A stretch of 64,000 bases of DNA from Herpetosiphonaceae bacterium (GTDB lineage Bacteria > Chloroflexota > Chloroflexia > Chloroflexales > Kallotenuaceae). Below the pieces are notes generated by a model that had not been told where the DNA came from, searched no databases, and saw only the letters and a list, made by a program, of their open reading frames with translations. Within the stretch, counting starts at the first letter, position 1; each line of letters starts with the position of its first letter. Made by a program: the position numbers and the translations under genes. The stretch covers positions 82,491 through 146,490 of the forward strand of contig JACDGP010000001.1 of NCBI GenBank assembly GCA_013821605.1. Reading direction: 5' to 3'. Below are positions 1,024 to 46,240 of this stretch, in pieces.

Positions 1024-1036
1024 TGAATACCTCCTG

Positions 1037-6894: not shown

Positions 6895-6964
6895 CGCCGC
6901 ATCCTGCCGGCGCTTGTTGAAGAGTACGCCGGCAGCTGTTTTTACGGAACGTGGGACATTGTCT

Positions 6965-9728: not shown

Positions 9729-9764
9729 CAAGGAAGGAATGCTGCATGGCAAGCAGGCCCGGTC

Positions 9765-12288: not shown

Positions 12289-12925
12289 GCAACTTAAAGA
12301 ACAGGTGTGGAAGCTGCATCTGGAATTACCCAAGAACGATCTGGTGAAGTGGACCGGCGGTAACGTGAGTGCTCGTGATCCCGAAACGGGCCTGGTCGTC
12401 ATCAAACCGAGCGGCGTCCTGTATGACGAGCTACATCCGGAAGATCACGTCGTGCTGAACTTGGACGGCGACGTGCTCGAAGGTAAGCTCAAGCCGTCGT
12501 CCGACACCGCTAGCCACCTGTATATCTACCGCCACCGGCCCGATGTCAACGGCGTCGTTCATACACACTCACCCTACGCGACCGCCTTTGCCGCCGTTAA
12601 TAAACCTATTCCGGTCTACCTCACGGCGATTGCCGATGAGTTCGGCGGCCCGATCCCCTGTGCGGGCTTCGCGATGATCGGCAGCGAGGCGATCGGTCAG
12701 CAGGTGGTCGAACATATTGGCTCGTCGGTTGCGGTGCTACTTAAGAATCACGGCGTCTTTACGATTGGCCCGAATGCCCGTGCCGCCGTCAAAGCGGCCG
12801 TCATGGTCGAAGACGTGGCGCGCGCGGTTTGGCTCGCGCTGCAATTAGGCCAGCCGGACGAGCTGCCCGCTGAGGATGTCGCTAAGCTCCATGATCGCTA
12901 TACCAACGTCTATGGACAGAAATAA
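12281..12925 (+). CDS. araD: L-ribulose-5-phosphate 4-epimerase
   Basis: Class II aldolase/epimerase motifs ([34 protein letters not shown]). Confidence 0.9.
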
Positions 12926-12936
12926 GGAGGTCTTCG

Positions 12937-14445: not shown

Positions 14446-14472
14446 GCAGCCCTGTGCCTAAGTAAGGAAGCT

Positions 14473-15813: not shown

Positions 15814-15868
15814 TGTGGCAAGGTAGTCACCCGCACGACTATGGTATTGATAATTGAGGAGCAAGCTC

Positions 15869-17065
15869 ATGCGGATCAGCGCGTTGAGACCAATGGTGAT
15901 GGGAACACCGTGGCGCAACCTGACCTTCGTCGTCGTCGAGACCGATGAAGGGCTACGCGGCGTCGGCGAAGTGCGGATGGTCAATCATACCGACGCGTTG
16001 CTCGGCTACCTGCAGGAGGCGGGCCGTAACCACATCCTGGGCTCCGATCCCTTTAAGATCGAAGATCTGGTGCAGCGCATGTTCCGGCGCGACTTCGCCC
16101 GTGCCAGCGAGATCATGACCTCCGCTATCGCCGTCATTGAGATGGCGTGCTGGGATATCATGGGCCAGGCGCTCGGCGTGCCCATCTACCAACTTCTAGG
16201 CGGCGCCGTGCGTGAGCGCATCCCGGCCTACGCCAATGGGTGGTACACCGTCGAGCGCTCTACCGAGGAGTTTCACACCGCAGCGCGGCGCGTCTCAGCC
16301 CGTGGGTATCGTGCGCTCAAGGTTGACCCGTTTGGTGCTGGCTTTTATGAGCTAAGCCGGACGGAGAAGCTGCGTTCGATTGCGTTGATTGAAGCGGTCC
16401 GAGCCGCCGTTGGCCCCGATTTCGAAATCTTGATCGAAATGCATGGTCGCTTTAATCCCGTGACTGCCATCGAAATCACCCGTGAGTTGGCACCCTTCCG
16501 TCCCGGCTGGATCGAAGAGCCCGTGCCGCCCGAGAATTTGCGTGCGTTACAAAAGGTGGCGACTGCCGTCGCACCGCTGGGTATTCCTGTTGCGACCGGC
16601 GAACGGATGCATACTATGTACGAGTTTCGCGAGCTATTCGAACTACAGGCCGCCGACATCATCCAGGCCGACATCACGCACTTTGGCGGCCTCTTAGCGA
16701 CGAAAAAGCTCGCAGCCTGGGCCGACGCCTACTACATGCTGATCGCGCCGCATAATGTCTGCGGCCCGGTGGGAACGGCTGCCGCCCTGCATCTCGCGGC
16801 ATGTACCCCCAACTTTAAAATTCAGGAACACTTCAATGACTTTGCCGACGCATGGGTTAAAGAAGCCGTGGTGGGGCTGCCGGAGGTCGATCCCGTCAAT
16901 GGCTGCTTCCCGCTGCCGAATGGACCGGGGCTGGGTGTCACGTTGAACGAGGAGTTCGTTGCTGCCCATCCGCGCGAACAGATCTTCTTTGATTTGTTCG
17001 AAGAGAACTGGCAGCGCCGGCAGGCTCGTCAAAACACCAGCGTCGATGACGCACCCAACGCATAA
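15869..17065 (+). CDS. Mandelate racemase/enolase-superfamily sugar-acid dehydratase
   Basis: ALKVDPFG, LIEMHGRF, WIEEPVPPEN, GERMHTMYEFREL, IAPHNVCGPVGT. Confidence 0.85.
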   Translation: MRISALRPMVMGTPWRNLTFVVVETDEGLRGVGEVRMVNHTDALLGYLQEAGRNHILGSDPFKIEDLVQRMFRRDFARASEIMTSAIAVIEMACWDIMGQALGVPIYQLLGGAVRERIPAYANGWYTVERSTEEFHTAARRVSARGYRALKVDPFGAGFYELSRTEKLRSIALIEAVRAAVGPDFEILIEMHGRFNPVTAIEITRELAPFRPGWIEEPVPPENLRALQKVATAVAPLGIPVATGERMHTMYEFRELFELQAADIIQADITHFGGLLATKKLAAWADAYYMLIAPHNVCGPVGTAAALHLAACTPNFKIQEHFNDFADAWVKEAVVGLPEVDPVNGCFPLPNGPGLGVTLNEEFVAAHPREQIFFDLFEENWQRRQARQNTSVDDAPNA

Positions 17066-17077
17066 AGGAGCAGCACC

Positions 17078-18070
17078 ATGCTTAGACTGGTTCAGTTTCT
17101 TGATGACGTTGGTAGCCGGCGTGTCGCGGTTGCAGGCGAGGATGAGCACACCCTACGACTGATCGACGGCTACGCGAGCGTCTACGATCTGTCCCTTGCG
17201 GCCATCCGCGCGGGCGCTCCGCTGACGTCCTTCGTCCAAACACACCTGTCACCTGAGCAAGCCGACTACGACCGGCTCACCGCAGAGCAACGGCTGTTGG
17301 CCCCGCTTAATCACCCAGATCCTGCACGCTGTACCGTCTCACTAACGGGCATTACTCATTTGGGTAGTGCAACATCGCGTGACCAGATGCATGCTCAGCT
17401 CACGGCGGCTACGACCGACACCGCGCGCATGTTCCAAATCGGCCTCGCTGGCGGCAAACCCGCCGCCGGCGAAGCTGGTGCGCTGCCCGAGTGGGCGTAT
17501 AAGGGCGATGGGCGCTGCATAGTCGCGCCCGAACATCGGCTTACCCAGCCGCCTTTTGCCGACGACGGCGGTGAAGAGGCGGAGATCGCGGGCTTGTATG
17601 TTATTGCCGACGATGGGCAGCCGTGGCGCGTTGGCTTTGCCATCGGCAATGAGTTCGCCGACCACGTCCTCGAGCGTAAGAATTACCTCTATCTGGCCCA
17701 CTCGAAGCTCCGCGAGTGTTCGTTCGGACCGGAACTACTGGTTGGCGAGCTCCCTGAGTCGGTGAGCGGCTCCGTCCGGATTCTACGTTCTGGTGCGACC
17801 GTCTGGCACACGCCGTTCGAGAGTGGTGAGACCAATATGTGCCACGCCATTTCAAACCTGGAACACCATCACTTCAAATACGATTTGTTCCGCCGCCCCG
17901 GCGATGTGCATGTCCATTTCTTCGGTGCCAATGGCGTCAGCTTTGGCGACGGCTTTAAGCCGGCCGACGGCGACGTGTTTGAACTCGATGTGCCTTTGTT
18001 CGGTCGCCCGCTTCGCAATCCGCTCAGGATTGCGAAGCAGCCACAGCAGATACAGGTCAAGGCCCTATGA
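17078..18070 (+). CDS. Fumarylacetoacetate hydrolase-superfamily protein, AraD1/GguC-like
   Basis: KLRECSFGPELL, GNEFADHVLERKNYLYLAHSK, and position after the enolase-superfamily gene. Confidence 0.65.
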   Translation: MLRLVQFLDDVGSRRVAVAGEDEHTLRLIDGYASVYDLSLAAIRAGAPLTSFVQTHLSPEQADYDRLTAEQRLLAPLNHPDPARCTVSLTGITHLGSATSRDQMHAQLTAATTDTARMFQIGLAGGKPAAGEAGALPEWAYKGDGRCIVAPEHRLTQPPFADDGGEEAEIAGLYVIADDGQPWRVGFAIGNEFADHVLERKNYLYLAHSKLRECSFGPELLVGELPESVSGSVRILRSGATVWHTPFESGETNMCHAISNLEHHHFKYDLFRRPGDVHVHFFGANGVSFGDGFKPADGDVFELDVPLFGRPLRNPLRIAKQPQQIQVKAL

Positions 18071-20416: not shown

Positions 20417-21370
20417 TCAATAGTTGGGCAGACGGTTGCGTTCGAGAACGTCGTGCTGAATGTGCAACAATTCAGTGCGTTCCAGCACCGCACCCAGCAC
20501 ATGCTGCATCGCCTGGTTATCCTTGTTCACGACGATGACAGCTTCGCCCAGTGGTGCCAGAGCTGGTTCGGCTTGTGGATCGAGAGGTACAACGGTTAAA
20601 CTCGTCAAATCGGCCGGAATATCTTCTGCGCTCCACACCGTCGCATCAATCGCTCCTGTCCGCAAGTGGTCAAGGCCCTGGCTATAATCGATCGGCTGCA
20701 GGTCAACCTGTTTGCCCCGGCTGATGGCACGCACAAGGTATACATGATCCATCGACTGCATATCGACGCCGATCCGCATACCGGCTTGTAGCTCGCAGAC
20801 ACCGCTGGGTAGCAAAAGACTATGGCCCCCCATATAGGAATGCGGACCAAGCACCATAACGGTCTGCACGGCAAAACCATGCGCTTCCGCCGTTTCGGCC
20901 GCCCACCGCGAGATGAGCGCCCAGTCGCACGTTTGTGATGCCAGGGCTTGCATCCGTTGGGCCGCGCCGCGCATAAAGCGCAGATCAAGATCGAGTGGCT
21001 CCCCCACGAACTGTTGCCGCAGACCGGTCGCCAATCCCTCGAAGCGACGCGAATATGGCAGAGGCATGGCCCCAATGATCGGACGCTGGAAGGCTAGCGA
21101 CCACAAAAGTGGATAACTAAGTTCTGCGGCATAGCTTCCCAGGCGGCCCCGCGCTTCAAGTCGCACCGCTCCTTGTTCCTGAAGATACTCTAACGCTGCT
21201 TGGACTGTTCCGGTGCCGACCGAGAGTTGTGCAGCATATTCCTGTACCGGCGCGAGCCGTCCACCCGGTACAGCCATGAACAGGATACGGGCCAGTTCGG
21301 TCACAACTAGCCCTTGTTTCGACATCAGTGCCCTGGCACGCTCACGGGTGGACGGCATTCTTGTATCCAA
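20417..21370 (-). CDS. GntR-like HTH regulator, YhfZ-like
   Basis: HTH region LAPVQEYAAQLSVGTGTVQAALEYLQEQGAVRLEARGRLGSY, then a YhfZ_C-like effector domain (RPIIGAMPLPYSRRFEGLATGLRQQF...). Confidence 0.7.
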   Translation of the reverse strand: MDTRMPSTRERARALMSKQGLVVTELARILFMAVPGGRLAPVQEYAAQLSVGTGTVQAALEYLQEQGAVRLEARGRLGSYAAELSYPLLWSLAFQRPIIGAMPLPYSRRFEGLATGLRQQFVGEPLDLDLRFMRGAAQRMQALASQTCDWALISRWAAETAEAHGFAVQTVMVLGPHSYMGGHSLLLPSGVCELQAGMRIGVDMQSMDHVYLVRAISRGKQVDLQPIDYSQGLDHLRTGAIDATVWSAEDIPADLTSLTVVPLDPQAEPALAPLGEAVIVVNKDNQAMQHVLGAVLERTELLHIQHDVLERNRLPNY

Positions 21371-21520
21371 TATTTCGTATATATATTTTCACTCTAGCAT
21401 GTGGAAATGAGACTGTCAATCGTCTTGCTAAGATGAGAATGGGCGATCTGCTGCTTGACGACATATGAGGAGTATGCTAATGTATTCAACATTCTGTATA
21501 TATAACTTTTACTATGCACA
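21361..21520. promoter_or_regulatory. Divergent control region with a pair of imperfect ~33-bp direct repeats around GTATATATA
   Basis: TGTATCCAATATTTCGTATATATATTTTCACT at 21362-21393 and TGTATTCAACATTCTGTATATATAACTTTTACT at 21481-21513. Confidence 0.45.
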
Positions 21521-22824
21521 TGTACACTGCTGAGCTTCCCATTATAGCTACCGCCGATGTAGTTATCCTCGGCGCGGGGTGCGCCGGCTGTGTAGCCGCG
21601 ATCGCAGCTGCTCGCACTGGTGCCGACACCTTACTGATCGAGCGCTATGGCTTTCTCGGTGGTACGTCAACGATGGTGTTAGACACCTTCTACGGTTTCT
21701 ACATACCCGGTGACGATGCCCGGCGGGTCGTAGGCGGACTGCCCTGGGAGGTTGTCGAGCGTCTCCGTGCACGCCGCATGATCGTAGAGCGCCCAAGCAG
21801 TTATGGGGCCGGGCAGGCTGTGACCTATGATCCACCTACACTCCAAGTGGTTTGGGAAGAGCTGGCGCTGGCAGCTGGGGTACGGCTGCGGCTCCATACC
21901 TTCTGTGTTGATGTGTTGATGGATGCGAACCGCATCACAGGCATCGTCGTCGCAGGTAAACAGGGTCTTGGCTTGATCCAGGCGGGGATCTTCATTGATG
22001 CCTCGGGCGATGCCGACCTATGTTACCGGGCGGGTGTACCATTTCAAGCTGCGGGCGAAGACGGCCCATCCCAATCGCTCACAACCACCTTTCGACTTGG
22101 CAATGTCGACGTTCCCCGCGCACAACAGATTAAACGCCCTGACCTCGTGCGGCTGATGCACGAAGCTAATCTGAGCGGTGAGTATCGACTGCCGCGCGAA
22201 GAAGGGAGCGTCCATCGCACGCCGTTACCTGGCGTGATGGCCACTAATATGACGCGGGTGACCGGCGTAGACCCCCTCGATCCGGTGCAGCTGAGCAAGG
22301 CCGAAGTCGAGGGTCGCCACCAAGCCTTGGAGTATACCCGCTTCCTCCGCGAACGCGTGCCGGGCTATGAACAAGCGTATTTGATCAATTTCAGCACGCA
22401 GATCGGCATTCGTGAAACGCGTCGCGTTCATGGCGAGTATCGCCTAACGCGCGAAGACGTCCTGCAGGCCCGCTCTTTTCCCGATGCCATCGCAGCGTGC
22501 GGTGCGCCCATCGAGGATCATCATCCGGGCAGCGACACGCGCTGGGAATACCTCCCAGCCGGTCGTACCTACGACATTCCATATCGGGCCCTCTTGCCAC
22601 AGTACGTCACCAATCTGCTCGTCGCTGGCCGCTGCTTATCGGCCACCCACGATGCGCATGCATCAGTTCGGAGTATGGGCCAGTGCATGGCGATGGGCCA
22701 AGCGGCGGGGACGGCAGCAGCCCTATCCGTGACGCAATCTGTTGATCCACACCACCTGCCGGTCGGGCAGCTTCAAATGCGGTTGCGACAGGCCGGTGCG
22801 TTATTTGGGGAGTCGGTGCAGTAG
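21514..22824 (+). CDS. FAD-dependent oxidoreductase (FAD_oxidored-type)
   Basis: Dinucleotide-binding VVILGAGCAGCVAAIAAARTGADTLLIERYGFLGGTST, C-terminal LVAGRCLSATHDAHASVRSMGQCMAMGQAAGTAAAL. Confidence 0.85.
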   Translation: MHMYTAELPIIATADVVILGAGCAGCVAAIAAARTGADTLLIERYGFLGGTSTMVLDTFYGFYIPGDDARRVVGGLPWEVVERLRARRMIVERPSSYGAGQAVTYDPPTLQVVWEELALAAGVRLRLHTFCVDVLMDANRITGIVVAGKQGLGLIQAGIFIDASGDADLCYRAGVPFQAAGEDGPSQSLTTTFRLGNVDVPRAQQIKRPDLVRLMHEANLSGEYRLPREEGSVHRTPLPGVMATNMTRVTGVDPLDPVQLSKAEVEGRHQALEYTRFLRERVPGYEQAYLINFSTQIGIRETRRVHGEYRLTREDVLQARSFPDAIAACGAPIEDHHPGSDTRWEYLPAGRTYDIPYRALLPQYVTNLLVAGRCLSATHDAHASVRSMGQCMAMGQAAGTAAALSVTQSVDPHHLPVGQLQMRLRQAGALFGESVQ

Positions 22825-22827
22825 CCT

Positions 22828-23796
22828 ATGTATGTTGGTGTCGATCTGGGCGGGACCAAGATTGCAGTGGCCGTCGTTGATGTGGAGCGGGGCACACTCG
22901 CCGGCCAGCTCGTCGTGCCAACCGAAGCCCACGAGGGACCACCGGCCGTGTTGCAACGTATGATCCAGCTCGTTAGGGCCGTTTGCCACGCGGCGGGCGT
23001 GCCTCCTGACCAGCTGCAAGGAGTGGGGCTGGGTGTGCCGGGGGTCTTTGATGCCGCGAGCGGCCATACGCTCCTGCTCCCCAACCTGCCGAGCGCCTGG
23101 GTTGATGTGCCTGTGGTTCCGCCCCTCGTGGCTGCCTTAGGCTGTCCTGTCATCCTAATCAATGATGCGCGCGCCTTTGTGCTGGGTGAGGCCACCTGGG
23201 GTGCCGGACGTGGAGCACATACCGTCGTTGGCCTCACGCTTGGCACCGGCATCGGCGGTGGTATTGCGATTAATGGACGCCTCCATTTGGGCATCGACGG
23301 CACGGCCGGCGAGGTTGGGCATATGACCATCGATCCGCACGGCCTGTTGTGTGGCTGTGGTAATCGCGGTTGTCTTGAAACGCTCGCCAGTGGTCCGGCG
23401 ATTACCGCCCTCGGCATCCGAGCTCTGGTGCACGGCAATACTACCAGCCTGGGCGAACTTGGGGGCTATGATCCCCGCCGTGTTACCCCGGAGCTCATCG
23501 GGCAGGCTGCGGCAGCAGGTGATCCGGTGGCGCGTGATATTTTGGATCGTGCTGCAGATGCCCTAGGTATTGGCGTTGCCAACATCGTGACTACCCTGAG
23601 TCCTGATCGTGTGGTGCTTGGCGGCGGCGTAACACATCTTGGAGTATGGCTGTTCGACGCAGTCCGTACCGTCGTTCGTGCCCGCTGCCGAGCTGTGCCG
23701 GTGGAGCGAATCTCGATTATGCCGGCGGCACTGGGAGCCGATGCTGGCGTGATCGGCGCCGCGACTTGGGCCGCACAACAACAACTTAAGAATTAA
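22828..23796 (+). CDS. ROK-family sugar kinase/regulator-like protein
   Basis: VGVDLGGTKIAVAVVD, GTGIGGGIAINGRLHLG, GEVGHMTIDPHGLLCGCGNRGCLE zinc motif. No HTH. Confidence 0.9.
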   Translation: MYVGVDLGGTKIAVAVVDVERGTLAGQLVVPTEAHEGPPAVLQRMIQLVRAVCHAAGVPPDQLQGVGLGVPGVFDAASGHTLLLPNLPSAWVDVPVVPPLVAALGCPVILINDARAFVLGEATWGAGRGAHTVVGLTLGTGIGGGIAINGRLHLGIDGTAGEVGHMTIDPHGLLCGCGNRGCLETLASGPAITALGIRALVHGNTTSLGELGGYDPRRVTPELIGQAAAAGDPVARDILDRAADALGIGVANIVTTLSPDRVVLGGGVTHLGVWLFDAVRTVVRARCRAVPVERISIMPAALGADAGVIGAATWAAQQQLKN

Positions 23797-23816
23797 GCCT
23801 CTACGTGGAGGGTGTC

Positions 23817-24935
23817 ATGACTGAAATAGCGAACGACGATTATGGACTCAGTAAGGTCGCTGGGGACAGCGAGATGGAGGCCCCTGACCTCCTATATCGT
23901 CCGCGCGATCCGCAGCGTTACCGACCGGCGATTGGCTTGATCGGCTGTGGCGGCATCTCGGCTCATCATTTAGCAGCATACCAGCAAGCGGGCTACCATG
24001 TGGTGGCCTTGTGTGACCTTGATGAAGGGCGGGCGCGCGAGCGCCAGACCAGCTACTACCCGCAGGCGGACGTCTACACCAACTACCATGATCTCTTGCG
24101 CCGTGATGACATCGAGGTCGTTGACGTGGCGACGCATCCGGCCGAGCGCTTGCCGATTTTGCAATCCGCACTTGAGGCGCGCAAGCATGTATTAAGCCAA
24201 AAACCGTTTGTGCTCGACCTTGATGCGGGTGAACGGCTCCGGGAATTGGCCGACCGGCAGGGCGTGCGGCTCGCGATCAACCAAAACGGCCGTTGGGCAC
24301 CACATTGGTCCTATCTTCGTGCAGCGGTCGGTCAAGGTCTGCTCGGTGCCCTTACCAGCGCTGATTTTGCGGTTCACTGGGACCATTCATGGACTGCCGA
24401 TACGCCCTTCAACGACATCCATGATCTGATTCTGTATGACTTCGCAATCCACTGGTTCGATATCGTCACCGCGTTTTTTGGCTCTCAGCAGCCACAACGC
24501 GTACGGGCCTCCGTGAGTCGAGCCACCGCGCAGCGTGGTCGCCCGCCGATGCTGGCACATGTATTAATCGATTATCCTCAAGCCCAGGCGACGATGCACT
24601 TCGACGCCACGGTGGTGCATGGTCAGCAGGATCGCACCTTCCTCGCGGGTACCCAGGGGAGTGCTGTGAGCGTCGGGCCGAGCTTATCCGAGCAGGCCAT
24701 CACGCTCCATACCGCTAGCGGTTATTGTCATCCCCCCTTGCAAGGCACTTGGTTCCGCGATGGCTTTCACGGCACGATGGCCGAGTTGCTTTGTGCGATC
24801 GAGGAAGGGCGCGACCCTATCACCAGTCCGCAGGAAAATCTACGGAGCTTGGCGCTCGCCTTTGCAGCTATCGCCAGCGCGCACGACGGGGTAGCGAAGG
24901 TTCCGGGCGAGGTCCGCCACTTACCTCAAGCATGA
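23817..24935 (+). CDS. Gfo/Idh/MocA-family oxidoreductase
   Basis: IGLIGCGGISAHHLAAYQQAGYHVVALCD, QKPFVLD. Start refined to ATG 23817 after GGAGG. Confidence 0.85.
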   Translation: MTEIANDDYGLSKVAGDSEMEAPDLLYRPRDPQRYRPAIGLIGCGGISAHHLAAYQQAGYHVVALCDLDEGRARERQTSYYPQADVYTNYHDLLRRDDIEVVDVATHPAERLPILQSALEARKHVLSQKPFVLDLDAGERLRELADRQGVRLAINQNGRWAPHWSYLRAAVGQGLLGALTSADFAVHWDHSWTADTPFNDIHDLILYDFAIHWFDIVTAFFGSQQPQRVRASVSRATAQRGRPPMLAHVLIDYPQAQATMHFDATVVHGQQDRTFLAGTQGSAVSVGPSLSEQAITLHTASGYCHPPLQGTWFRDGFHGTMAELLCAIEEGRDPITSPQENLRSLALAFAAIASAHDGVAKVPGEVRHLPQA

Positions 24936-24951
24936 GACATGGAGAGTCCCT

Positions 24952-26022
24952 ATGAGCAAGTTCAAGATTGCCGGCATTAACTTCGCCCACCAGCATATGG
25001 GTGATAACCTGCGCATGGCCTTTGAACACCCCGACGTCGAGATCGTCGGTTTGTCGGACGAAGACCCGCAGCAGATGGAGACGGCTGTGCGCAACTTCGG
25101 TATCCCGGCCGACCGCGTGTTTAATGACTACCGGCAGTGCTTGGAGCAGACCAAGCCCGATCTAGTGATGACCTGTCCGGCCACAGCTGAGCATGCACTG
25201 TGGGTCGAGCGCATCGCACCCTATGACGTGCACCTGCTGGTTGAAAAGCCTTTCGCCGCCTCGCTGCCTGAGGCCGACCGGATGATCAAGGCTGTAGCGG
25301 CGACCGGCAAGCGTATGGCGATCAACTGGCCGCTCGCCTGGTATCCGCCGCATGTCACATCCAAGCGTTTGATCGACGAGAGCCTGATCGGCGAGGTGAT
25401 CGAGGTGCACTACTATGATGGTAATCGCGGCCCTGTGCGCCACGCAGCCGACAAGATCGAAACGATGCCGACCGCTGAAGAGAAAGCGGCGAGTTGGTTC
25501 TACCAGCGCGACAAAGGCGGCGGGTCACTTCTCGATTACCTGGGCTACGGCACCACACTTGCCACTTGGTTCAACGCTGGCCAGGCGCCCCTAGAAGTGA
25601 TGGCAGTTACGGATGAGCCCGCCGGCTTGGAGGTCGATGAGCACAGCATCGTTGTGGCGCGTTACGCGTGCGGGCTCTCGAAGTTCGAAACGCGCTGGGG
25701 CGCGTTTACCGATCCTTGGATTATGCAGCCTCAGCCCAAGTGTGGCTTCGTGATCGTTGGCAGTGTGGGCACGATCAGTTCGTATGACTACGAGCCGACG
25801 ATCCGCGTCCAGACTGCCGCTCATCCCGAAGGACAGGTCATCCCGGTCGATCAATTACAGCAACCACGGCAGAATCCGGTGCAATATATGCTGCACTGTA
25901 TCCAAACCGGTGAGCCAATCCAGGGTCCGCTTGACCCCGCGATTTGTCGTATCGGCCAACAAATTGTGGACAGCGCGATCTTGAGTGCCCACCTCAAGCG
26001 CACCGTACCCCTGGTCCAATAA
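24952..26022 (+). CDS. Gfo/Idh/MocA-family oxidoreductase
   Basis: KIAGINFAHQHMGDNLRMAFEHPDVEIVGLSDEDP, LLVEKPFAASLPEADRM. Confidence 0.85.
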   Translation: MSKFKIAGINFAHQHMGDNLRMAFEHPDVEIVGLSDEDPQQMETAVRNFGIPADRVFNDYRQCLEQTKPDLVMTCPATAEHALWVERIAPYDVHLLVEKPFAASLPEADRMIKAVAATGKRMAINWPLAWYPPHVTSKRLIDESLIGEVIEVHYYDGNRGPVRHAADKIETMPTAEEKAASWFYQRDKGGGSLLDYLGYGTTLATWFNAGQAPLEVMAVTDEPAGLEVDEHSIVVARYACGLSKFETRWGAFTDPWIMQPQPKCGFVIVGSVGTISSYDYEPTIRVQTAAHPEGQVIPVDQLQQPRQNPVQYMLHCIQTGEPIQGPLDPAICRIGQQIVDSAILSAHLKRTVPLVQ

Positions 26023-26032
26023 AGGAGACATA

Positions 26033-26830
26033 ATGATCGATATTGGTCCGGCGGAGCAATACCTAGACGCGACTCAACAGATGGTGGAGCGTATCCGCGC
26101 GACGCAACTGCCGGCGATCAGCGCAGCGGCCGAAATCTGCACCACATCGATTGCCGCAGGTGGGCTGGTGCACCTCTTCGGCACCGGTCACTCGCGCATT
26201 CCGGTCGAGGAAATGTTTCCACGGCATGGTAGTTTTCCCGGCTTCCACCCGATTGTGGAGCTGTCGTTGACCTACCATACCCAGGTTGTCGGCGCGAATG
26301 GGCAGCGTCAAGCGATGTTTCTGGAACGGGTCGAAGGCTTCGGCGAGGTGATCCTACGCAACTTTGTCTTCGGGCCACACGACAGCTTCATCGTTTTCTC
26401 GAACGGTGGCGTCAACGAGGTAGTGATCGACGTGGCACTCGGTGCTCGGCGGCGTGGGATGCCGGTGATCGCGATGGTTTCAGCGGACCATTGTGCCCGT
26501 TCGACGCCACGCCATAGCACAGGCCAACGGCTGCCCGACATCGCCGATGTGACCATCGATAACTGTTCGCCGGTTGGCGATGCCTTGGTCCATGTGAGCG
26601 GGCTGGACTACCCGGTCGGGCCAGGATCAACGGTCGGCTATGCTGTGGTCGTCAACATGCTCAAAAGCTTGGTTGCCGCCGAGCTCACCCGTCGCGGACA
26701 GCCGCCACTCGTGCTTACCAGCGGTGCCCTAATCGGCAGTGCCGCCTCGGCTGAGCTGTTTGAGCGCACCTACGACGACTACCGCCGCCGCGTCGCGCAG
26801 GTTTATGGTGGTGTGAGCAGCGATGAGTGA
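26033..26830 (+). CDS. SIS-domain protein (UPF0309-like sugar isomerase-domain protein)
   Basis: LVHLFGTGHSRIPVEEMFPRHGSFPGFHPI, IVFSNGGVNEVVIDVALGARRRGMPVIAMVS. Start refined to ATG 26033 after AAAGGAG. Confidence 0.8.
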   Translation: MIDIGPAEQYLDATQQMVERIRATQLPAISAAAEICTTSIAAGGLVHLFGTGHSRIPVEEMFPRHGSFPGFHPIVELSLTYHTQVVGANGQRQAMFLERVEGFGEVILRNFVFGPHDSFIVFSNGGVNEVVIDVALGARRRGMPVIAMVSADHCARSTPRHSTGQRLPDIADVTIDNCSPVGDALVHVSGLDYPVGPGSTVGYAVVVNMLKSLVAAELTRRGQPPLVLTSGALIGSAASAELFERTYDDYRRRVAQVYGGVSSDE

Positions 26831-27617
26831 CGAACGGGCAGCCATGCTGCGTTTACATGACAAAGTTGCCATCGTGACCGGTGCGGGCAGTGGCATCGGA
26901 CGAGCCACAGCGCATCGCTTTGCCAGCGAGGGTGCCCACGTCGCGGCCCTGGACCGTAGTGCTGATGCACTGGCCGAAACGGTAGCGGCGATCACCGCCG
27001 GTGGTGGTACGGCACTGCCGTTCGTCGTGGATGTCACCCATACTGATGAGGTCCAGCAGACTGTGGAACGCGTGCTGGCCGCTTGGGGTCGACTAGATGC
27101 GCTATTCAACGGCGTCGGTATCAGTGGCCGGCGCTGGGGCGATGGTCCGGTGGACCAGTGCACCGAGGAAGGCTGGGATCAGGTGCTCCAGGTCAACCTA
27201 AAGAGCATGTTTCTGGTTTGTAAATACACCCTGCCGGCCTTGTTAGTAACACGCGGCGCCGTTGTAAATCTGTCTTCGGTGCTGGGACTGGTCGGTGGTG
27301 ATGAGGATTTTGCAACCCACGCCTACGCCGCCAGTAAAGCCGGCATTATCGGCTTGTCGCGCGCTATGGCGGCCTTTTACGCGCCACAGGGTGTCCGTGT
27401 CAACGTGATCGCACCTGGCCTGATCGCCACACCCATGAGTAGACGCGCCCAGGACGACCCCCATATCCTTGGGCGGTTAGCGCAACTGCAGCCGCTAACC
27501 GGTGCGCTGGGCCTGCCTGAGGATGTAGCTGCCACGGCGGCCTATCTGGTTTCTGATGACGCGCGTTTTGTGACGGGCGTGGTACTGCCCGTCGATGGCG
27601 GCTGGACGGTACGGTAA
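26823..27617 (+). CDS. Short-chain dehydrogenase/reductase
   Basis: VAIVTGAGSGIGRATAHRFASEG, NGVGI, YAASKAGIIGLSRA, VLPVDGGW. Overlaps the SIS gene. Confidence 0.9.
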   Translation: MSDERAAMLRLHDKVAIVTGAGSGIGRATAHRFASEGAHVAALDRSADALAETVAAITAGGGTALPFVVDVTHTDEVQQTVERVLAAWGRLDALFNGVGISGRRWGDGPVDQCTEEGWDQVLQVNLKSMFLVCKYTLPALLVTRGAVVNLSSVLGLVGGDEDFATHAYAASKAGIIGLSRAMAAFYAPQGVRVNVIAPGLIATPMSRRAQDDPHILGRLAQLQPLTGALGLPEDVAATAAYLVSDDARFVTGVVLPVDGGWTVR

Positions 27618-27634
27618 CGGACAAAGGAGGAGGA

Positions 27635-28684
27635 ATGGGATCAGCACTGCCACTTTTACCGACCAGTGTGATCGGCTCGTATGCCTGGCCTGCCTGGCTG
27701 CATACGGCCTTGGAAGCCGCGCAGCGCGGTGAATATGGCCCGGATGATATGCGTGAAGTGCAGGACGACGCCGTAGATCTGGCACTCCGCGACCAAGCGG
27801 ATGCCGGTGTCGACACTGTGACCGATGGTGAGATGCGTCGCGTCGGTTTTTTTACTGCCGAGTTTTATGGTCACTTCCAGGGTTTGCGCGAGCTACCGCC
27901 CCGCCGTAAAGTCGGCATCGCCGGTCACGACCAGCGCGAAAGCTATGAGGCAGTCGCTGAGCTTATCGCACCGGCTGGATTGGGCTTGGTAGGCGAGTAT
28001 AACTATCTCCGCACGCGCACCTCTGCCTCCCTCAAGATGCCCTGCGCCGGTGCCTATACCTTAGCGGGCAGAATCAAGCCCGCTGGTGTCTACCACGACC
28101 GCATGGCGGTTGCTCATGCACTGGCCCAGATCATCAATACCGAACTTAAAGCGCTGGTCGCGGCCGGAGCCGATTTTATTCAGATCGATGAGCCCTCCTA
28201 TGCTGTCCACCCCGACGCTCCGCGTGAATTTGTTGATCTCTTCAATGCCACGGTTGCCGGTGTCGATGCCAAAATTGGGCTCCATCTCTGCTTCGGCAAC
28301 TTCGTCGGTCGTCCGGTGGCCAAGCGCAGCTACCGCCCCTTGTTTCCACATATCCTTGATGTCCACGCCGACCAACTGGCCCTCGAATTCGCTAATCGTG
28401 AGTTGGCCGAGTTGGATCTGTGGCGCGAGTTTCCCAACAACAAAGGGTTGGCAGCCGGCCTCATCGATGTGAAAAACTACTACATTGAAACAGCCGAGGA
28501 TGTCGCCGAGCGTATCCGTGCCGCCCTGCACTACGTCGCCCCCGAGCAACTCACCGTCGTTCCCGACTGCGGCTTCAGCCAGACCGCGCGTTGGGCGGCC
28601 CGTGCCAAGCTCAAGGCCATGGTTGAGGGCACCAGGATCGTACGGCGAGAGTTAACGGGCGCGCAACAGGAGCCCAAGGTATGA
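27635..28684 (+). CDS. Cobalamin-independent methionine synthase (MetE C-terminal)-like protein
   Basis: TSVIGSYAWPAWL, DEPSYAVHPDAP, putative Zn ligands HLC (LHLCFGN), E (IETAED), C (VPDCGFSQT). Confidence 0.8.
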   Translation: MGSALPLLPTSVIGSYAWPAWLHTALEAAQRGEYGPDDMREVQDDAVDLALRDQADAGVDTVTDGEMRRVGFFTAEFYGHFQGLRELPPRRKVGIAGHDQRESYEAVAELIAPAGLGLVGEYNYLRTRTSASLKMPCAGAYTLAGRIKPAGVYHDRMAVAHALAQIINTELKALVAAGADFIQIDEPSYAVHPDAPREFVDLFNATVAGVDAKIGLHLCFGNFVGRPVAKRSYRPLFPHILDVHADQLALEFANRELAELDLWREFPNNKGLAAGLIDVKNYYIETAEDVAERIRAALHYVAPEQLTVVPDCGFSQTARWAARAKLKAMVEGTRIVRRELTGAQQEPKV

Positions 28685-29604
28685 CTGTTGTTATCACCGT
28701 GCGTGGCCCAATCTCCGCTAGTGAACTTGGTATCACCTACCCGCATGAGCATCTTTTGACGACACCACCGGTCACGGTGACCGATCCCGATCTCACACTG
28801 GATAGCGAGGATGCGGCGGTTCGCGAGCTTGGCTTGTTCTATGCGGCTGGGGGTCGAGCGCTCGTTGAAATGTCGCCGCGCGATTATGGTCGCGCGCCTG
28901 CCGGTCTACGTCGCCTCGCTGAGCGAAGCGGTGTACATATCATTGCTACAACGGGTTGGCACAAAGATCGGTTTTGTCGTCCGTGGGTCGCTGAGCGTAG
29001 CATCAACGACCTGGCCGACGAGATGATTCGTGACATCGAGGAGGGCATCGACGGCACCGGAGTACGTGCCGGTGTGATCAAGGCGGCTTCGAGCCTCAAC
29101 ACCATCACCCCGGCCGAGGAAAAGGTCTTTCGGGCGGCGGCACGCGCTCAACGCGCGACCGGCGTTCCCATTTCGACCCATACCGAAGCGGGTACGATGG
29201 GCCTGGAGCAGGTTGCACTCCTGCGTTCCGAAGGCGTCGATCCCGGACGACTCATGATCGGCCATGTAGACCGCAATATGGATCCCACCTACCAGCGGGC
29301 GTTGCTCCAAACCGGCGTAACCATCAGCTATGATCAGCTCAGCAAGGAGAAGTACCATCCTGACCGGCTACGGGTCGAGTTTTTGCTTCATCTGGTGCAG
29401 GACGGCTGGGGCAAGCAGTTCGTGCTTTCCGGTGATTTCGCGCGCAAGTCATATTGGCCGAGCTACGGCGGCTGGGGTGGACCCGGCCTTACCTATATCC
29501 TCTGGCGCTTCGTCCCCTGGCTGCGCGAGCAAGGTCTCGATCCCACGGTGATCGATGATATACTGGTCGCCACGCCGGCGCGCCTCTTCCAGATCGCTCG
29601 CTAG
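28681..29604 (+). CDS. Phosphotriesterase-family metal-dependent hydrolase
   Basis: HEH (YPHEHLL), GVIKAASS Lys, STHTEAG, IGHVDRN, SGDFARKSYW. Complete PTE-family ligand set. Confidence 0.87.
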   Translation: MTVVITVRGPISASELGITYPHEHLLTTPPVTVTDPDLTLDSEDAAVRELGLFYAAGGRALVEMSPRDYGRAPAGLRRLAERSGVHIIATTGWHKDRFCRPWVAERSINDLADEMIRDIEEGIDGTGVRAGVIKAASSLNTITPAEEKVFRAAARAQRATGVPISTHTEAGTMGLEQVALLRSEGVDPGRLMIGHVDRNMDPTYQRALLQTGVTISYDQLSKEKYHPDRLRVEFLLHLVQDGWGKQFVLSGDFARKSYWPSYGGWGGPGLTYILWRFVPWLREQGLDPTVIDDILVATPARLFQIAR

Positions 29605-29648
29605 CGTACCGGATGGTGGCATGTGGAGTATAGAAGGATCTTGCCGTC

Positions 29649-30500
29649 ATGATTGAGCCGCTGCTCAAGGATCGCGCGTTCCTAGCGGATGTAGCACAGG
29701 CACGCCAAGCACACGACCAATTTCATCTCTGGTGGCTTGGCCAGAGCGGATTTTTGGTCCAGTGGCAAGACCGGCACCTGCTGCTCGATCCATATCTTTC
29801 CGACTCCCTGACCGCAAAGTATGCGGCCACCGACAAGCCGCATGTCCGCATGACGGCGCGGGTAATTGCGCCGCAGCAGTTAGACTTCGTGGATATAGTG
29901 ACCTCCAGCCATAATCATACCGATCACCTGGATGCTGAAACCCTTATTCCGATTCTGCAGGCTAACCCTGCTATCACGCTCGTGATTCCCGAAGCCAATC
30001 GCGCCTTTGTTGCCGACCGCCTCCGTATCGATCCTGTGCGACCTGTGGGCGTGGACGATGGCCTAACGGTTGAGGTTAATGGTTTCCACATCACGGGTAT
30101 TGCGTCAGCCCACGAGACGGTGGAACGTGATACTGCTGGCCACGCCCACTTTCTGGGTTATGTGGTGCGCTTCGGGCCATGGTCGATCTACCACAGTGGC
30201 GATACCATGCGCTATGACGGCATGGCTGAGCGGCTCCGCCCCTATGCCCCTCTGGTCGCACTCCTGCCCATTAATGGTCATGCGCCGGAGCGACGGGTCC
30301 CCGGTAATCTGGATGGGCGTGAAGCGGCGCAGTTAGCCAAGGATATTGGTGCTAGTGTCGTCATCCCCTGTCACTACGGAATGTTCGCTTTCAACACTGC
30401 GTCGCCGGAGCATTTTGTGGCGGAAGCGCAGCGGCTCGGCCAGCCCTATCACCTGCTGCGAGCTGGCGAGTGCTGGAGCAGTCCAAGCATCCCAGCTTGA
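29649..30500 (+). CDS. MBL-fold metallohydrolase, UlaG-like
   Basis: TSSHNHTDHLD metal motif, YHSGDTMRYDGM, PINGHAPERRVPGNLD, VIPCHYGMF. Confidence 0.8.
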   Translation: MIEPLLKDRAFLADVAQARQAHDQFHLWWLGQSGFLVQWQDRHLLLDPYLSDSLTAKYAATDKPHVRMTARVIAPQQLDFVDIVTSSHNHTDHLDAETLIPILQANPAITLVIPEANRAFVADRLRIDPVRPVGVDDGLTVEVNGFHITGIASAHETVERDTAGHAHFLGYVVRFGPWSIYHSGDTMRYDGMAERLRPYAPLVALLPINGHAPERRVPGNLDGREAAQLAKDIGASVVIPCHYGMFAFNTASPEHFVAEAQRLGQPYHLLRAGECWSSPSIPA

Positions 30501-30525
30501 TATTCCCAGAGCTAAGGAGTAATGT

Positions 30526-31287
30526 ATGTCTCGTTTCGCAATCTCGTCCTGGAGTCTTGACGGCCTGCTCCAGGGAGGAATGCCGCTCATTACGGTGCCC
30601 GATCAGATGGTCGAGCATGGCGTAACAACGCTCGAACTCTGCCATTTTCATCTCCTCAGTACCGCAGCCACCGATGTGCAAGCGCTACGTCATGCCTTAG
30701 AGGCGGCGGGAGTTGAACTCTATAGTCTATTGATCGACACCGGCGACATTACGGCTCCTGATCCCGCACAATGCGCGGCGGATCTCCAGACCATTCGCCG
30801 TTGGATCGCTATCGCCGCTGAACTTGGTGCGCAGCAGGTACGCGTCGCTGCCGGCAGCCAAGCGGCAACACCGGACATCATCCGACGCAGCGCAGAACAC
30901 TTGCTGGCTTGCGCCGACCTTGCGGCTTCTTATGGCCTCCGCACCATTACCGAGAATTGGCGTACGACCGCCGAGCAGCCTGCTGACCTGTTAGCTATTC
31001 TCGACGGCTGCCGCAGTCAAGTCGGCCTTTGCGCCGATACCGGCAATGCTGAAGCGACTCCCGATAAATATGGGACACTAGCACAGCTTCTACCACGAGC
31101 ATCCTCAGTTCATTTCAAAGCTCGCTACGAAGCCGATGGCCAGGTTAATCAAGCAGATGCGGAGCACTGTGTCTCGCTCATACGGCAGGCCAACTTCGAC
31201 GGCGTTATAACGCTGATCTATGCGGACAAGCATAACGAGTGGGCTGGCATCGAGCAGTTGCGTACGGCGATCCAACCACTGGTGTAA
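30526..31287 (+). CDS. Sugar phosphate isomerase/epimerase-type TIM-barrel protein
   Basis: AP endonuclease 2/xylose isomerase-like pattern (LGAQQVRVAAGSQA, LRTITENWRTT, VGLCADTGNAEATPDKYGT, SVHFKARY). Confidence 0.75.
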   Translation: MSRFAISSWSLDGLLQGGMPLITVPDQMVEHGVTTLELCHFHLLSTAATDVQALRHALEAAGVELYSLLIDTGDITAPDPAQCAADLQTIRRWIAIAAELGAQQVRVAAGSQAATPDIIRRSAEHLLACADLAASYGLRTITENWRTTAEQPADLLAILDGCRSQVGLCADTGNAEATPDKYGTLAQLLPRASSVHFKARYEADGQVNQADAEHCVSLIRQANFDGVITLIYADKHNEWAGIEQLRTAIQPLV

Positions 31288-31305
31288 CACGACAGGAACC
31301 AAGCT

Positions 31306-32067
31306 ATGCAGATCGATCTATCCAACAAGGTTGCCGTCGTGACCGGTGGTTCGGGAGAGCTCGGCCGTGTAATGGCCCGGACCCTGGCGCACTGTGGAGC
31401 GGACGTAGCAGTGCACTACCTCCACAATCAAGCGCAGGCGGAGCAGGTGTGCCGCGAGATAGGCGAGCTCGGGGTGCGAGCCATGCCGGTGCAGGCTGAT
31501 GTCGGTGACCGTGCTTCGGTCTTGGCCATGCGCGATGCAATTATGGCCCAGTTGGGCGCCCCTCACATCGTGGTTACGAATGCAGTGATTCAGTATGCCT
31601 GGACCACGGTGCTTGAACAACCACTCGATGATTACGAGGGCCAGTTTCGTTCGTGTGTGCTGCAAAACGTGTTGATGGCACAGGCCTTCGTTCCCGCGAT
31701 GATCAGCCGCAGCGCGGGCCGTATTATTGCCATCAACACCGAATGCGCGATGCAGAATTTCGCGACCCAATCCGCCTATGTTGCTGGCAAGCGTGGCATG
31801 GACGGCGTCTTACGAGTGCTGGCTCGCGAGATTGGCACACATCAGATTACGGTTAACCAGGTGGCACCCGGCTGGACGATCAGTGAGCGCGACCGTGCCG
31901 CCCATACAGAAACACAGCCGGCCTATGACTCGGCTGTGCCTCTACGGCGGCGCGGGACCGATCAGGAGATCGCCAACGTTGTCGCCTTTCTCGCATCTGA
32001 CCTGGCCAGCTACATCACCGGTGCCTACATACCGGTCTGCGGTGGCAACATCATGCCGACGATCTAA
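31306..32067 (+). CDS. Short-chain dehydrogenase/reductase
   Basis: VAVVTGGSGELGRVMARTLAHCGADVAVHY, SAYVAGKRGMDGVLRVLAREIG, PVCGG. Confidence 0.88.
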   Translation: MQIDLSNKVAVVTGGSGELGRVMARTLAHCGADVAVHYLHNQAQAEQVCREIGELGVRAMPVQADVGDRASVLAMRDAIMAQLGAPHIVVTNAVIQYAWTTVLEQPLDDYEGQFRSCVLQNVLMAQAFVPAMISRSAGRIIAINTECAMQNFATQSAYVAGKRGMDGVLRVLAREIGTHQITVNQVAPGWTISERDRAAHTETQPAYDSAVPLRRRGTDQEIANVVAFLASDLASYITGAYIPVCGGNIMPTI

Positions 32068-32072: not shown

Positions 32073-33446
32073 TCAATCGAGTGTCAGGACCAGCGAAGAT
32101 TGTGGCGGGAAGAGGACGTCCAGCACCATTCCTGCCTCGTCGCTGGCCCACACATCCGGAAAGATATGCTCCAACTCAGTTCGGCTATGCCGGCCGAAGA
32201 GCAACTGCAAGAATACCAAGGGTGGAAAACCGGCAGCACCTTTGAGATCGCTGCTGTAGATCGGTCGCCGCCAGCTCTCGGACGTGGTGAGCCGGCCATC
32301 TGCGAAATGGAGATGCAGACCATCGCGGTAGAAGTCGAGGTGCACATCACCGCTGTAACCAGCGAGTGGCGAAGCACTTAGGCGACCTTCGAGGACGGGT
32401 GCTACGTGTTGTACAAAGCCTGGTAGATCGGGGATGCGCACGTACCAGGCATAGACTCGGTCGCGACGGGGTGCTAGGGCGTCGCCTAACACCAGGTACG
32501 CTGGATGGGCAGTGCCAAAGCTGAACAGGAGCCGGGAAGGGTTGGCGCGGTCGCGGCCCGTGGGCACCTGGGGCGCAAGCGCTTGTAGCGCACGTAGGAC
32601 TGACGGCATGGGCGTTGACCATGTGGTTCCGGCGGTCACAGCCATCTGGATCACGTCCAGCGTTTTGCCCCAACGTGTATGGCGCACCAGGACAAAACCG
32701 CAATGGGCACCCTGGAGATCGTTGATCAGGAGGGTGGTCCAGCCCTCGCCCGACTCCACGCTCATACCATCCAGCGTCCAGTGCCAGTAGGCTTCGGGAA
32801 TATCAGACGACACCAGACTGCGCCCTTGTTCGCGTTGGTAGAGTTCCATGACGAAGGGCAAGTCGTCCTCGGTCGCGGGTTGCAGTCGGTAGGCCTCCGT
32901 CTCGCCGTCCTTCAGTGGCGGGATATCATCGAATTGAACAAAGCGGCCACCACCGAGTTCCAACGCCATCTCGTAGCCAAACTGGCGGTAAAAGTAAGGG
33001 ATGCCGGTGATTGCTTGGGCCAGATCGCCTGCTCGGGCACTGCGGGCATGGAAGGCGTCGAAGAGCGCACGTATCAAGCCACGCCGCCGGTACTCCGGAT
33101 GGGTCGCGACGGCCTCTGGTCGTCCCACGCCGAAACGGATGCCACCGAAGCTCCAGGTTATCGGGATCAGCCACATACTTGCCACAACCTTGCCGGTATG
33201 TGTATCTTCGACGAGGACCCCCTGGTCTACAGTTGTCAGTGGATGACGTCCACTACCGAGGTCGCGCATCCACGCTACCATATGTGCGTTGGGAGGCTCC
33301 TCCGCCTTCTGACGAAAGACATAGGCTGCGAGTTCACCGATGCGCTCAACATCCTCCGCCGTGCTCCAACGCAGAACCAGACCATCACCGACCGCTTGGG
33401 GAACGGTTATATCGTTGGTCTGCTGAGTAACTTGTGTATCGCTCAT
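32073..33446 (-). CDS. GNAT-family N-acetyltransferase, Eis-like
   Basis: GVGRPEAVATHPEYRRRGLIRALFDAFHARS, followed by a long Eis-like C-terminal region. Confidence 0.8.
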   Translation of the reverse strand: MSDTQVTQQTNDITVPQAVGDGLVLRWSTAEDVERIGELAAYVFRQKAEEPPNAHMVAWMRDLGSGRHPLTTVDQGVLVEDTHTGKVVASMWLIPITWSFGGIRFGVGRPEAVATHPEYRRRGLIRALFDAFHARSARAGDLAQAITGIPYFYRQFGYEMALELGGGRFVQFDDIPPLKDGETEAYRLQPATEDDLPFVMELYQREQGRSLVSSDIPEAYWHWTLDGMSVESGEGWTTLLINDLQGAHCGFVLVRHTRWGKTLDVIQMAVTAGTTWSTPMPSVLRALQALAPQVPTGRDRANPSRLLFSFGTAHPAYLVLGDALAPRRDRVYAWYVRIPDLPGFVQHVAPVLEGRLSASPLAGYSGDVHLDFYRDGLHLHFADGRLTTSESWRRPIYSSDLKGAAGFPPLVFLQLLFGRHSRTELEHIFPDVWASDEAGMVLDVLFPPQSSLVLTLD

Positions 33447-34102: not shown

Positions 34103-34897
34103 TCAACTGTCGATACCAGCACGAACCTTGCCGGCCGGATCGATGCCCCGTAGCATCATGCCCTGACCTCGTGAGTGGTGCGCATTGTTCAGCGGCGCGT
34201 CGTCGGCCGCGCGCATCTGCACCAGCAGGGTCGTGCGCGCCTCATTGCTCGCGTTAATGCCCGAGCCATGAACGGTTAGATAGGAGAAGATCAGGACATC
34301 GCCGGCTTTCGCCTCCATCGGCGTCGCCAGATCGAGCGGCCACTGCTCGAGCGGCAGATGAAAACTACCTTCGGCATCATGCTCAAGCGGCCCGTGCTTA
34401 TGGCTGCCCGGCACGATTTGCACGCATCCCTTGGCAAGTGGCGCGTCGTCGAAATGAATGATAGCCGCGAGCATGGTATCGCGGGCATGGGGAAAGAAGG
34501 GATAATCCTGGTGCATCGGGAAAGGCGAGCCTTTTTCGGGCGGCTTGATGAAGAGCTTGTTATGATGCAACTGGATATTCGGGCCAATCAGATCGGCGAC
34601 TGGGTCGACCAGACGCGGATCGACCAGCAGCCGGGTCAACGCTGCGCTCTGAAACTGGACGTTGTGACAATGCAGCAGCTTGGTGTGGGGCTCCGTGACG
34701 CTCATGCGCGCGGAGCCCCACGTCGCGTCGATATCCTGGTTGCGCATCAAACGATCCATGAGTTCGTGCGCCTCTCGGCGGAACTCGGTCGCCTCCGAGG
34801 CACTGAAGACCCCAGGCAGGAGCACATAGCCTTGCTCCTGGTAGTGCTCGACCTGTTCTATACTCAAGGCAACAGGCCGGCTCGCTGGCTCGATCAT
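34103..34897 (-). CDS. Phytanoyl-CoA dioxygenase (PhyH)-family protein
   Basis: GYVLLPGVFSASEATEFR, PFPMHQDYPFFPH (HxD), VQIVPGSHKHGPL, LTVHGSGINAS. Start refined to MIEPASRPV. Confidence 0.85.
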   Translation of the reverse strand: MIEPASRPVALSIEQVEHYQEQGYVLLPGVFSASEATEFRREAHELMDRLMRNQDIDATWGSARMSVTEPHTKLLHCHNVQFQSAALTRLLVDPRLVDPVADLIGPNIQLHHNKLFIKPPEKGSPFPMHQDYPFFPHARDTMLAAIIHFDDAPLAKGCVQIVPGSHKHGPLEHDAEGSFHLPLEQWPLDLATPMEAKAGDVLIFSYLTVHGSGINASNEARTTLLVQMRAADDAPLNNAHHSRGQGMMLRGIDPAGKVRAGIDS

Positions 34898-35034
34898 GAT
34901 CTTGCTCCTTCCGGTGAAGACCTCACGCATTCTATAGTAAACCATAAGCGGCGGTCCTTCTCGGGCGATTCCAAAGTCCGATGCGAAGTGCATGCTGAGA
35001 TCATTTGGTGGTAAGCAGCCAACCGCCCACGCTA

Positions 35035-45964: not shown

Positions 45965-46240
45965 CGCACTCCTCATACCTTAACGTAAAAACCCCCGGCA
46001 TGGTGCCAAGCACGGCCCTGCCAGGGATACTCCCTACGACCGGCTACACTGCCGCTACAAATGGTACGAAGCAAGCTTCGCTCCAAGACAGCCAAACTAT
46101 ACCGCGTCCCACGATTGGCCGCAACATTATGCTCCTAAATTCGGTATACTGTGACGGGCCACACTGCGAGGTGCGGCATTTCTGCGTTTCATTCGCCATC
46201 ATCCCTTGTGCCGGACTGGTCTGCAAAAAAAGGAGGTTCT

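Follow-up and report, generated by a model that had tools for sequence, protein, structure and literature searches.

The window analysed here comprises 64,000 nucleotides of the Herpetosiphonaceae bacterium assembly GCA_013821605.1 (contig JACDGP010000001.1, positions 82,491 to 146,490, forward strand), a 5.9 Mb Chloroflexota assembly which shares its order with Roseiflexaceae genomes. On its + strand lies a run of eleven genes (21514-32067, numbered within the window) which is a real, conserved and modular sugar-phosphate catabolic operon. In order, the genes encode an FAD-dependent oxidoreductase, a ROK-family kinase, two Gfo/Idh/MocA oxidoreductases (GFO1, GFO2), a single-domain SIS protein, an SDR oxidoreductase (SDR1), a MetE-like protein, a phosphotriesterase-family (PTE) protein, a UlaG-like hydrolase, a TIM-barrel protein and a second SDR oxidoreductase (SDR2). 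We tentatively propose, at somewhat less than an even chance, that the operon serves a monosaccharide taken up in free form, most likely an O-methylated (or N-acylated) aldose, by the route outlined below. Its best supported chemistry is an elimination by the SIS protein together with an oxidation by FAD protein and lactonase; the transfer of a methyl group to homocysteine is its most interesting yet least certain element.

Conservation and composition of the operon

The initial annotation had described eleven same-strand genes at tight spacing, had placed them in the families named above and had pointed out that neither a transporter nor a glycosidase lies among them, all of which was confirmed. 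Eleven open reading frames tile 21514-32067 with intergenic distances of -38 to +44 bases, including an ATGA overlap at the MetE-like/PTE junction (28681-28684), and Pfam supports each assignment (FAD_oxidored, ROK, twice GFO_IDH_MocA, SIS_2, twice SDR, Meth_synt_2, PTE, Lactamase_B_2/3 and AP_endonuc_2) while detecting no transporter or glycosidase in the run. A convergent GNAT gene (32073-33446, -) sets the 3' limit. Close members of every family in the operon are already known, and no described operon of this composition, nor one with an assigned substrate, was found in the open-access library, whose coverage does not extend to subscription papers; within that scope the earlier view of an undescribed gene set holds.

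An alignment of the SIS protein, scanned against 84,980 species, yielded 80 named loci, where window-type neighbours recurred with different frequency (MetE-like 48, SDR1 36, ROK 35, FAD 25, GFO2 19, UlaG-like 16, PTE 14 and GFO1 13). For a check with less bias, four of the operon genes served as queries against an even draw of 301 Chloroflexota genomes. A close SIS gene (E <= 1e-80) was present in 18 of them, and all nine genomes with the closest MetE-like genes (at least 409 bits) fell within these 18 (hypergeometric 1e-12), the distance to the SIS gene being below 2 kb in seven. Likewise, ten of the eleven genomes with a close FAD gene belonged to the 18 (3e-13), with FAD and SIS genes on the same contig and about 15 kb or less apart in nine genomes. 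That the run is a catabolic unit and not a chance adjacency, as had been suggested, is thus corroborated. A fortuitous series of metabolic genes with no shared pathway would agree with the variable gene content and with the fact that SDR2 and the TIM barrel of the window are seldom shared, but is very improbable given how strongly the genes co-occur and adjoin one another in different families and phyla.

The distribution of the operon is patchy, since a close SIS orthologue is absent from all five other searched genomes of the window's own family but present in sixteen genomes of one sister family. Beyond the phylum, related gene sets occur in Alphaproteobacteria, Deinococcus, Actinobacteriota and on plasmids of Bacteroidota. 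Plasmids of Spirosoma and Persicobacter carry similar SDR-ROK-SIS-FAD-PTE sets, a Haliscomenobacter plasmid an SDR-SIS-FAD-PTE set and a Deinococcus plasmid an SDR-FAD-PTE-aldolase-SIS set, and Devosia-type and Arsenicitalea records combine SIS, SDR1, FAD, PTE, ROK and both Gfo genes. The picture of a single eleven-gene pathway is corrected by this variation between genomes: the run is a modular set and not a fixed eleven-gene pathway. Three records labelled Bacteroidetes or Pleurocapsa (L053, L059, L075) have a layout near-identical to that of the Chloroflexota loci and are probably misassigned metagenome bins. In a further group of loci, mostly of Caldilineaceae (L081-L083, L091-L107), SIS and MetE-like genes form a conserved pair without other genes of the module, and many of these pairs adjoin genes for ribosomal protein L19 and a sulfatase.

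SIS protein

The SIS protein (25985..26830, +) belongs to the PRK02947 family (NCBIfam 276 bits, cut-off 135) and is a probable phosphosugar lyase or dehydratase. Its called start is a GTG at 25985, while starts of homologues cluster near an ATG at 26033; the called start is probably wrong and the ATG the true one, by which the 38-base overlap with GFO2 would become a 10-base gap. The closest solved structures are 3cvj and the Streptomyces enzyme NagS (9eol, 8e-34). NagS dehydrates N-acetylglucosamine 6-phosphate (GlcNAc-6P), for which H53, R64, E94 and D179 are essential (PMC12680351). These four residues are kept in the window protein as H69, R80, E114 and D199, and among aligned relatives H, R and D were found in 86 of 86 sequences and E in 84 of 86. 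Two residues needed for full NagS activity, S91 and N228, are replaced by Q107 and A248, the N228 position being variable among relatives. Retention of the essential four and replacement of the other two suggest that the elimination machinery was kept for a substrate which is probably not GlcNAc-6P. Judged by its active site, the protein is predicted to be a NagS/MurQ-type lyase and not an isomerase. Of the chemistry originally envisaged for the operon, phosphorylation, oxidation and the opening of a lactone stay plausible, as does a methyl or thiol chemistry.

Compared with NagS (SCO4393) and the MurQ etherase family, the window protein shares the single-SIS fold and the four catalytic residues; it differs from NagS not only in the exchange of S91 for Gln and the variable N228 position, but also in an inserted Q-rich loop and in its location in a catabolic operon, NagS being reported from Streptomycetaceae only, beside dmdR1. 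Even if no demethylation takes place, a lyase with the catalytic residues of NagS in a cross-phylum catabolic operon gives a family otherwise represented by a single signalling enzyme a catabolic role that can be tested. A distant SIS gene on an Agrobacterium vitis plasmid (L120, 1191-11154) is part of an operon with a BMP-type ATP-binding cassette (ABC) transporter, a PfkB kinase, a nucleoside phosphorylase, an isochorismatase-like hydrolase and an aldehyde dehydrogenase.

The likeness to NagS raises the question of an amino-sugar route, in which an N-acetylhexosamine would be phosphorylated, dehydrated by the SIS protein, deacylated, oxidised and cleaved in an Entner-Doudoroff-like manner, leaving a side function to the MetE-like protein. 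The succession of NagS and NagA has been demonstrated in Streptomyces, NagA genes scoring over the curated cut-off adjoin the SIS operon in two related loci (L139, L145), NagA-related sequences occur in two more (L134, L114), and the NagK and NanK families are among the matches of the ROK kinase. However, NagA is missing from the window operon and from most loci, precisely those residues which aid GlcNAc-6P turnover are replaced, and ~30% homologues of NagS were reported to have no such activity (PMC12680351), so that we consider this route possible but rather doubtful.

Oxidation and lactone opening

The FAD protein (21514..22824, +; PF12831, Pfam 398 bits) is presumed to act as a dehydrogenase on a sugar or sugar phosphate and to supply a lactonase with its substrate. 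By sequence it has no relative in PDB, and a Foldseek search with its AlphaFold model (predicted local distance difference test, pLDDT, 73) returned generic FAD monooxygenase and reductase folds only. In the 301 Chloroflexota genomes, each of the ten FAD orthologues beyond the window is situated 75 bp or less from a PTE gene, which fits a dehydrogenase followed by a lactonase.

The PTE protein (28681..29604, +; Pfam PTE 229 bits) is a probable phospholactonase. Its best PDB match is Listeria 3pnz (E 2e-60), which we take to be a phospho-furanose lactonase. Motif and alignment show a complete set of metal ligands (H22, H24, K134, H167, H195, D252), and the Lys ligand and an ARK-Y motif are common to the window protein, 3pnz and Mycoplasma Ms0025. 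The score against the phospho-furanose lactonase model NF045706 (PhFuoseLconase) was far below cut-off (163.5 of 630); Mycoplasma relatives are phospho-pentonolactonases (PMC10971088). In contrast to operons of 3pnz-type lactonases, the partner genes here are different (an ABC transporter or none, FAD, MetE). In Listeria (L122, 2455-7735) the 3pnz gene is placed between genes of an ascorbate-type phosphotransferase system and genes for a creatininase-family protein, a KDGP aldolase and a SIS protein of the window SIS family, a compact operon with the same logic.

The UlaG-like protein (29649..30500, +; Pfam Lactamase_B_2/3), with a metallo-beta-lactamase fold, is a probable lactonase or C-C/ester hydrolase. 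Its HxHxDH motif is intact, but only remote relatives were found, with a weak match to UlaG 2wyl and a score below cut-off against the L-ascorbate-6-P lactonase model PRK11709 (44 of 306). A strict replacement of PTE by UlaG-like proteins was rejected: the two do not overlap among 56 loci, but p=0.19 and the window carries both.

Kinase, Gfo, SDR and TIM-barrel proteins

The ROK-family sugar kinase (22828..23796, +; Pfam ROK 235 bits) reached 208 bits with the ROK glucokinase family, below the cut-off of 260; some loci have a PfkB kinase in its place. GFO1 (23805..24935, +; Pfam) has orthologues at 51-64% which are paired with GFO2 (24952..26022, +; Pfam), whose orthologues range at 62-69%. 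SDR1 (26823..27617, +; Pfam) adjoins SIS in many loci, whereas SDR2 (31306..32067, +; Pfam) is seldom present and peripheral to the module. The xylose-isomerase-like TIM barrel (30526..31287, +; Pfam AP_endonuc_2), an epimerase or an elimination/hydration enzyme, has one remote PDB relative and is poorly conserved in related loci.

Two Gfo proteins and a TIM barrel would also suit a keto-sugar route of the levoglucosan or glycoside 3-dehydrogenase kind, with oxidation of C3 by one Gfo protein, elimination of a glycosidic or ether group by the TIM barrel, reduction by the second Gfo protein and channelling of the product into metabolism by the remaining enzymes. DgpA is among the PDB matches, and related loci contain pairs of further genes (GFO3-TIM2) whose best NCBIfam match is levoglucosan dehydrogenase, though at 180 bits and below the cut-off of 650. 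Every Gfo match is far below the equivalog cut-offs, the two window proteins scoring merely 41 and 33 of 650 with levoglucosan dehydrogenase (LgdA, NF052479), and the kinase and SIS core as well as the MetE-like enzyme would be left unexplained, which makes this route improbable.

MetE-like protein and methyl transfer

The MetE-like protein (27635..28684, +) has 349 amino acids with a single Meth_synt_2 stretch (Pfam) and consists of the catalytic domain only, the folate domain being absent; it is a putative zinc- and homocysteine-dependent, folate-independent methyltransferase of the core-MetE type. Measured against the residue list of Price et al. (PMC7857596), the zinc ligands (H217, C219, E251, C312) and the homocysteine residues (S15, E66, D185) are intact. 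All seven are kept in 23 of 23 aligned sequences, and Lys280 occupies the position of the MetE catalytic His throughout the alignment. Proteins linked to SIS cluster as one group, with the exception of one aberrant long-branch sequence, and have H98, G145, L218 and S315 in common. The MetE-like protein is thus a member of a dedicated folate-independent subfamily beside a SIS or lactonase gene, and its presence is not incidental.

The intact residues could also be those of an extra methionine synthase which is parked in a sugar operon and plays no catabolic part, given that core-MetE families elsewhere act as methionine synthases (PMC7857596, PMC7005905). The core methionine synthases MesA-MesD are alike in their length of about 340 residues, in being reduced to the catalytic domain and in the same zinc (HCEC) and homocysteine residues. 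By contrast, the window protein is below the NCBIfam equivalog cut-offs (PRK04326 244 of 406, PRK09121 162 of 392), has the H98 signature and is encoded within a sugar operon, the genome possessing a full MetH (1064 bits, cut-off 1011). Because of this complete MetH a housekeeping role in methionine synthesis is unlikely, and as the sole role of the gene it is disfavoured. As, in addition, the SIS-linked subfamily follows SIS through genomes scattered over the phylogeny and has signature residues of its own, an extra methionine synthase appears a poor explanation.

As an alternative METHYLTRANSFERASE, other loci encode a URO-D protein (MtaA/CmuA superfamily) in the place of the MetE-like protein. 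In Thermanaerothrix the URO-D protein is joined by an MtgC-like corrinoid protein and a RACo/AcsV activator, and one locus (L080) combines URO-D, corrinoid protein, MetE-like and UlaG-like genes. MetE-like genes alone were counted 46 times, URO-D alone 14 times, both twice and neither 24 times; co-occurrence was rare (1 of 56 loci, Fisher p=0.001; restricted to module loci, p=0.04). No zinc HxC motif turned up in the URO-D proteins of related loci; they are hence not MtaA-like thiol methylases and may be substrate:corrinoid enzymes. A strict replacement of one methyltransferase by the other holds in part only, 8 of the 18 SIS genomes having neither in close form. With about half of the SIS genomes devoid of both, methyl transfer is an accessory and not a core function. 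The URO-D methyltransferase, MtgC-like protein and RACo of some related loci are shared with corrinoid O- and N-demethylase systems (MtvB/MtgB-C, RACo); the window operon has none of these parts, just the B12-independent MetE-like enzyme.

Sugars bearing methyl ethers occur widely in the polysaccharides of plants, algae and bacteria, and an oxidative route for the demethylation of methyl sugars is known. Non-oxidative routes of sugar demethylation were not found in the open-access library. A precedent for methyl transfer of this kind is Bmt, a member of another family, which passes methyl groups directly to homocysteine from the catabolic substrates dimethylsulfoniopropionate (DMSP) and betaine (PMC12366255). 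As a speculative and on balance unlikely extension, the MetE-like protein might represent a new core-MetE subfamily that demethylates sugar methyl ethers independently of B12 and oxygen within a dedicated operon of sugar catabolism, such that homocysteine receives the methyl group of an O-methyl sugar (or of the unsaturated phosphate derived from it). Anaerobic relatives would then have a corrinoid/URO-D version, and related MetE subfamilies in acyl-CoA and citrate-type operons would act on other methoxy compounds. If true, this would provide a B12- and oxygen-independent route as well as a marker gene for it.

MetE-like relatives with complete zinc and homocysteine residues directly follow citrate synthase, PrpF and aconitase genes in three loci (L157, L158, L159), possibly with a further methyl-transfer or an unexpected role in a methylcitrate-like operon, and in three others (L149, L151, L152) MetE-like genes adjoin those of a MaoC dehydratase and an AMP-binding acyl-CoA ligase.

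Proposed pathway

Related loci supply functions which the window run lacks. Many have an RbsABC-type sugar transporter, so that 'transporter-less', a term coined for the run in the initial annotation, describes the window correctly but is no inherent trait of the operon. A KDPG-type aldolase (2-keto-3-deoxy-6-phosphogluconate) adjoins PTE in related loci, DeoC, GntR/UTRA regulators and a Gfo-TIM pair recur, and in one locus (L110) PTE is followed by an aldose 1-epimerase. The fullest relative (L137) contains RbsBACC, ROK, SIS, DeoC, GFO3, TIM2, GFO4, SDR1, KDPG aldolase, FAD and PTE. Transporter, aldolase, DeoC, NagA and epimerase in these relatives together suggest uptake of a free aldose and its phosphorylation, followed by a lactone and a 2-keto-3-deoxy acid.

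In the proposed route for an O-methylated or N-acylated aldose, the Gfo/Idh/MocA and TIM-barrel proteins would adjust the sugar by oxidation or epimerisation and the ROK kinase would phosphorylate the primary hydroxyl. With its NagS/MurQ-type machinery the SIS protein would then open the ring and eliminate the substituent at C3, the product being a sugar phosphate of the 3-deoxy-2-keto or the 2,3-unsaturated type. Oxidation of C1 by the FAD protein and/or an SDR would lead to a lactone, to be opened by the PTE (or UlaG-like) enzyme, and a KDPG-type aldolase, in related loci, would cleave the acid. The core-MetE-like enzyme would pass the methyl group of the substrate to homocysteine, with or without a corrinoid protein as intermediary. 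What the analysis shows is the gene set, its co-conservation and the intact catalytic residues of SIS, MetE, PTE and UlaG; the class of substrate, the sequence of reactions and the origin of the methyl group are inferred.

Several observations weigh against such a pathway. Gene content differs between genomes, and the window operon itself is without an aldolase. In eight of the 18 SIS genomes a close MetE-like gene is absent and any URO-D match is weak; Bacteroidota and Devosia-type loci carry neither. Distant MetE relatives are found in unrelated operons (MaoC/acyl-CoA ligase; citrate synthase/PrpF/aconitase), which suggests that the wider family serves several catabolic settings. As for the co-occurrence statistics, the 'close' cut-offs were fixed after the tables had been viewed, and related genomes are non-independent.

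Among individual substrates, 4-O-methylglucuronate was rejected, as no data support it and it offers no C6 hydroxyl to the kinase; pinitol or inositol ethers and 2-O-methylribose were likewise unsupported by data.

Regulator and neighbouring genes

Divergent from the operon lies a full-length gene for a YhfZ-type (GntR-like) transcriptional regulator (20417..21370, -; NF041241 293 bits, cut-off 260; Pfam YhfZ_C 210 bits and HTH_41), which the initial annotation had overlooked and which is presumed, from its position alone, to control the operon. The intergenic region (21371..21513) bears an AT-rich GTATATATA element at both ends, a weak candidate for an operator; operator and promoter scans of this region gave no repeat or promoter signal exceeding shuffled expectation. 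In the survey of neighbouring genes YhfZ was not found at related SIS loci, which have UTRA/GntR regulators instead.

An above-cut-off YhfZ next to a PHP-like PTE protein recalls the E. coli yhf operon, and a relative of that operon might process the yhf substrate. Yet all other genes differ, the PHP score amounts to 217 against a cut-off of 486, and regulators of another type prevail at related loci, so that such a kinship is highly implausible; membership in the yhf operon itself was rejected, the YhfS-X partners missing among the eleven genes.

Genes for a formate-tetrahydrofolate (THF) ligase, a biopterin-dependent aromatic amino acid hydroxylase and a PhyH dioxygenase are located nearby (42250-43962, 45194-45976 and 34103-34993 (-), respectively), and the window annotation gave no evidence supporting their membership in the operon. 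Upstream, arabinose and xylan utilisation genes (5278-18070, +) form a separate unit, with a GH2 gene on the other strand and the regulator in between. This cluster comprises GH51-like, GH39 and GH43 genes, a HAD protein, an FGGY kinase, a class II aldolase, AraA, Fe-ADH_2 (AraM-like), a gluconate dehydratase-like enolase and GguC/AraD1, and is accompanied by an ABC transporter (160-3557, -) and a LacI regulator (3808-4896, -).

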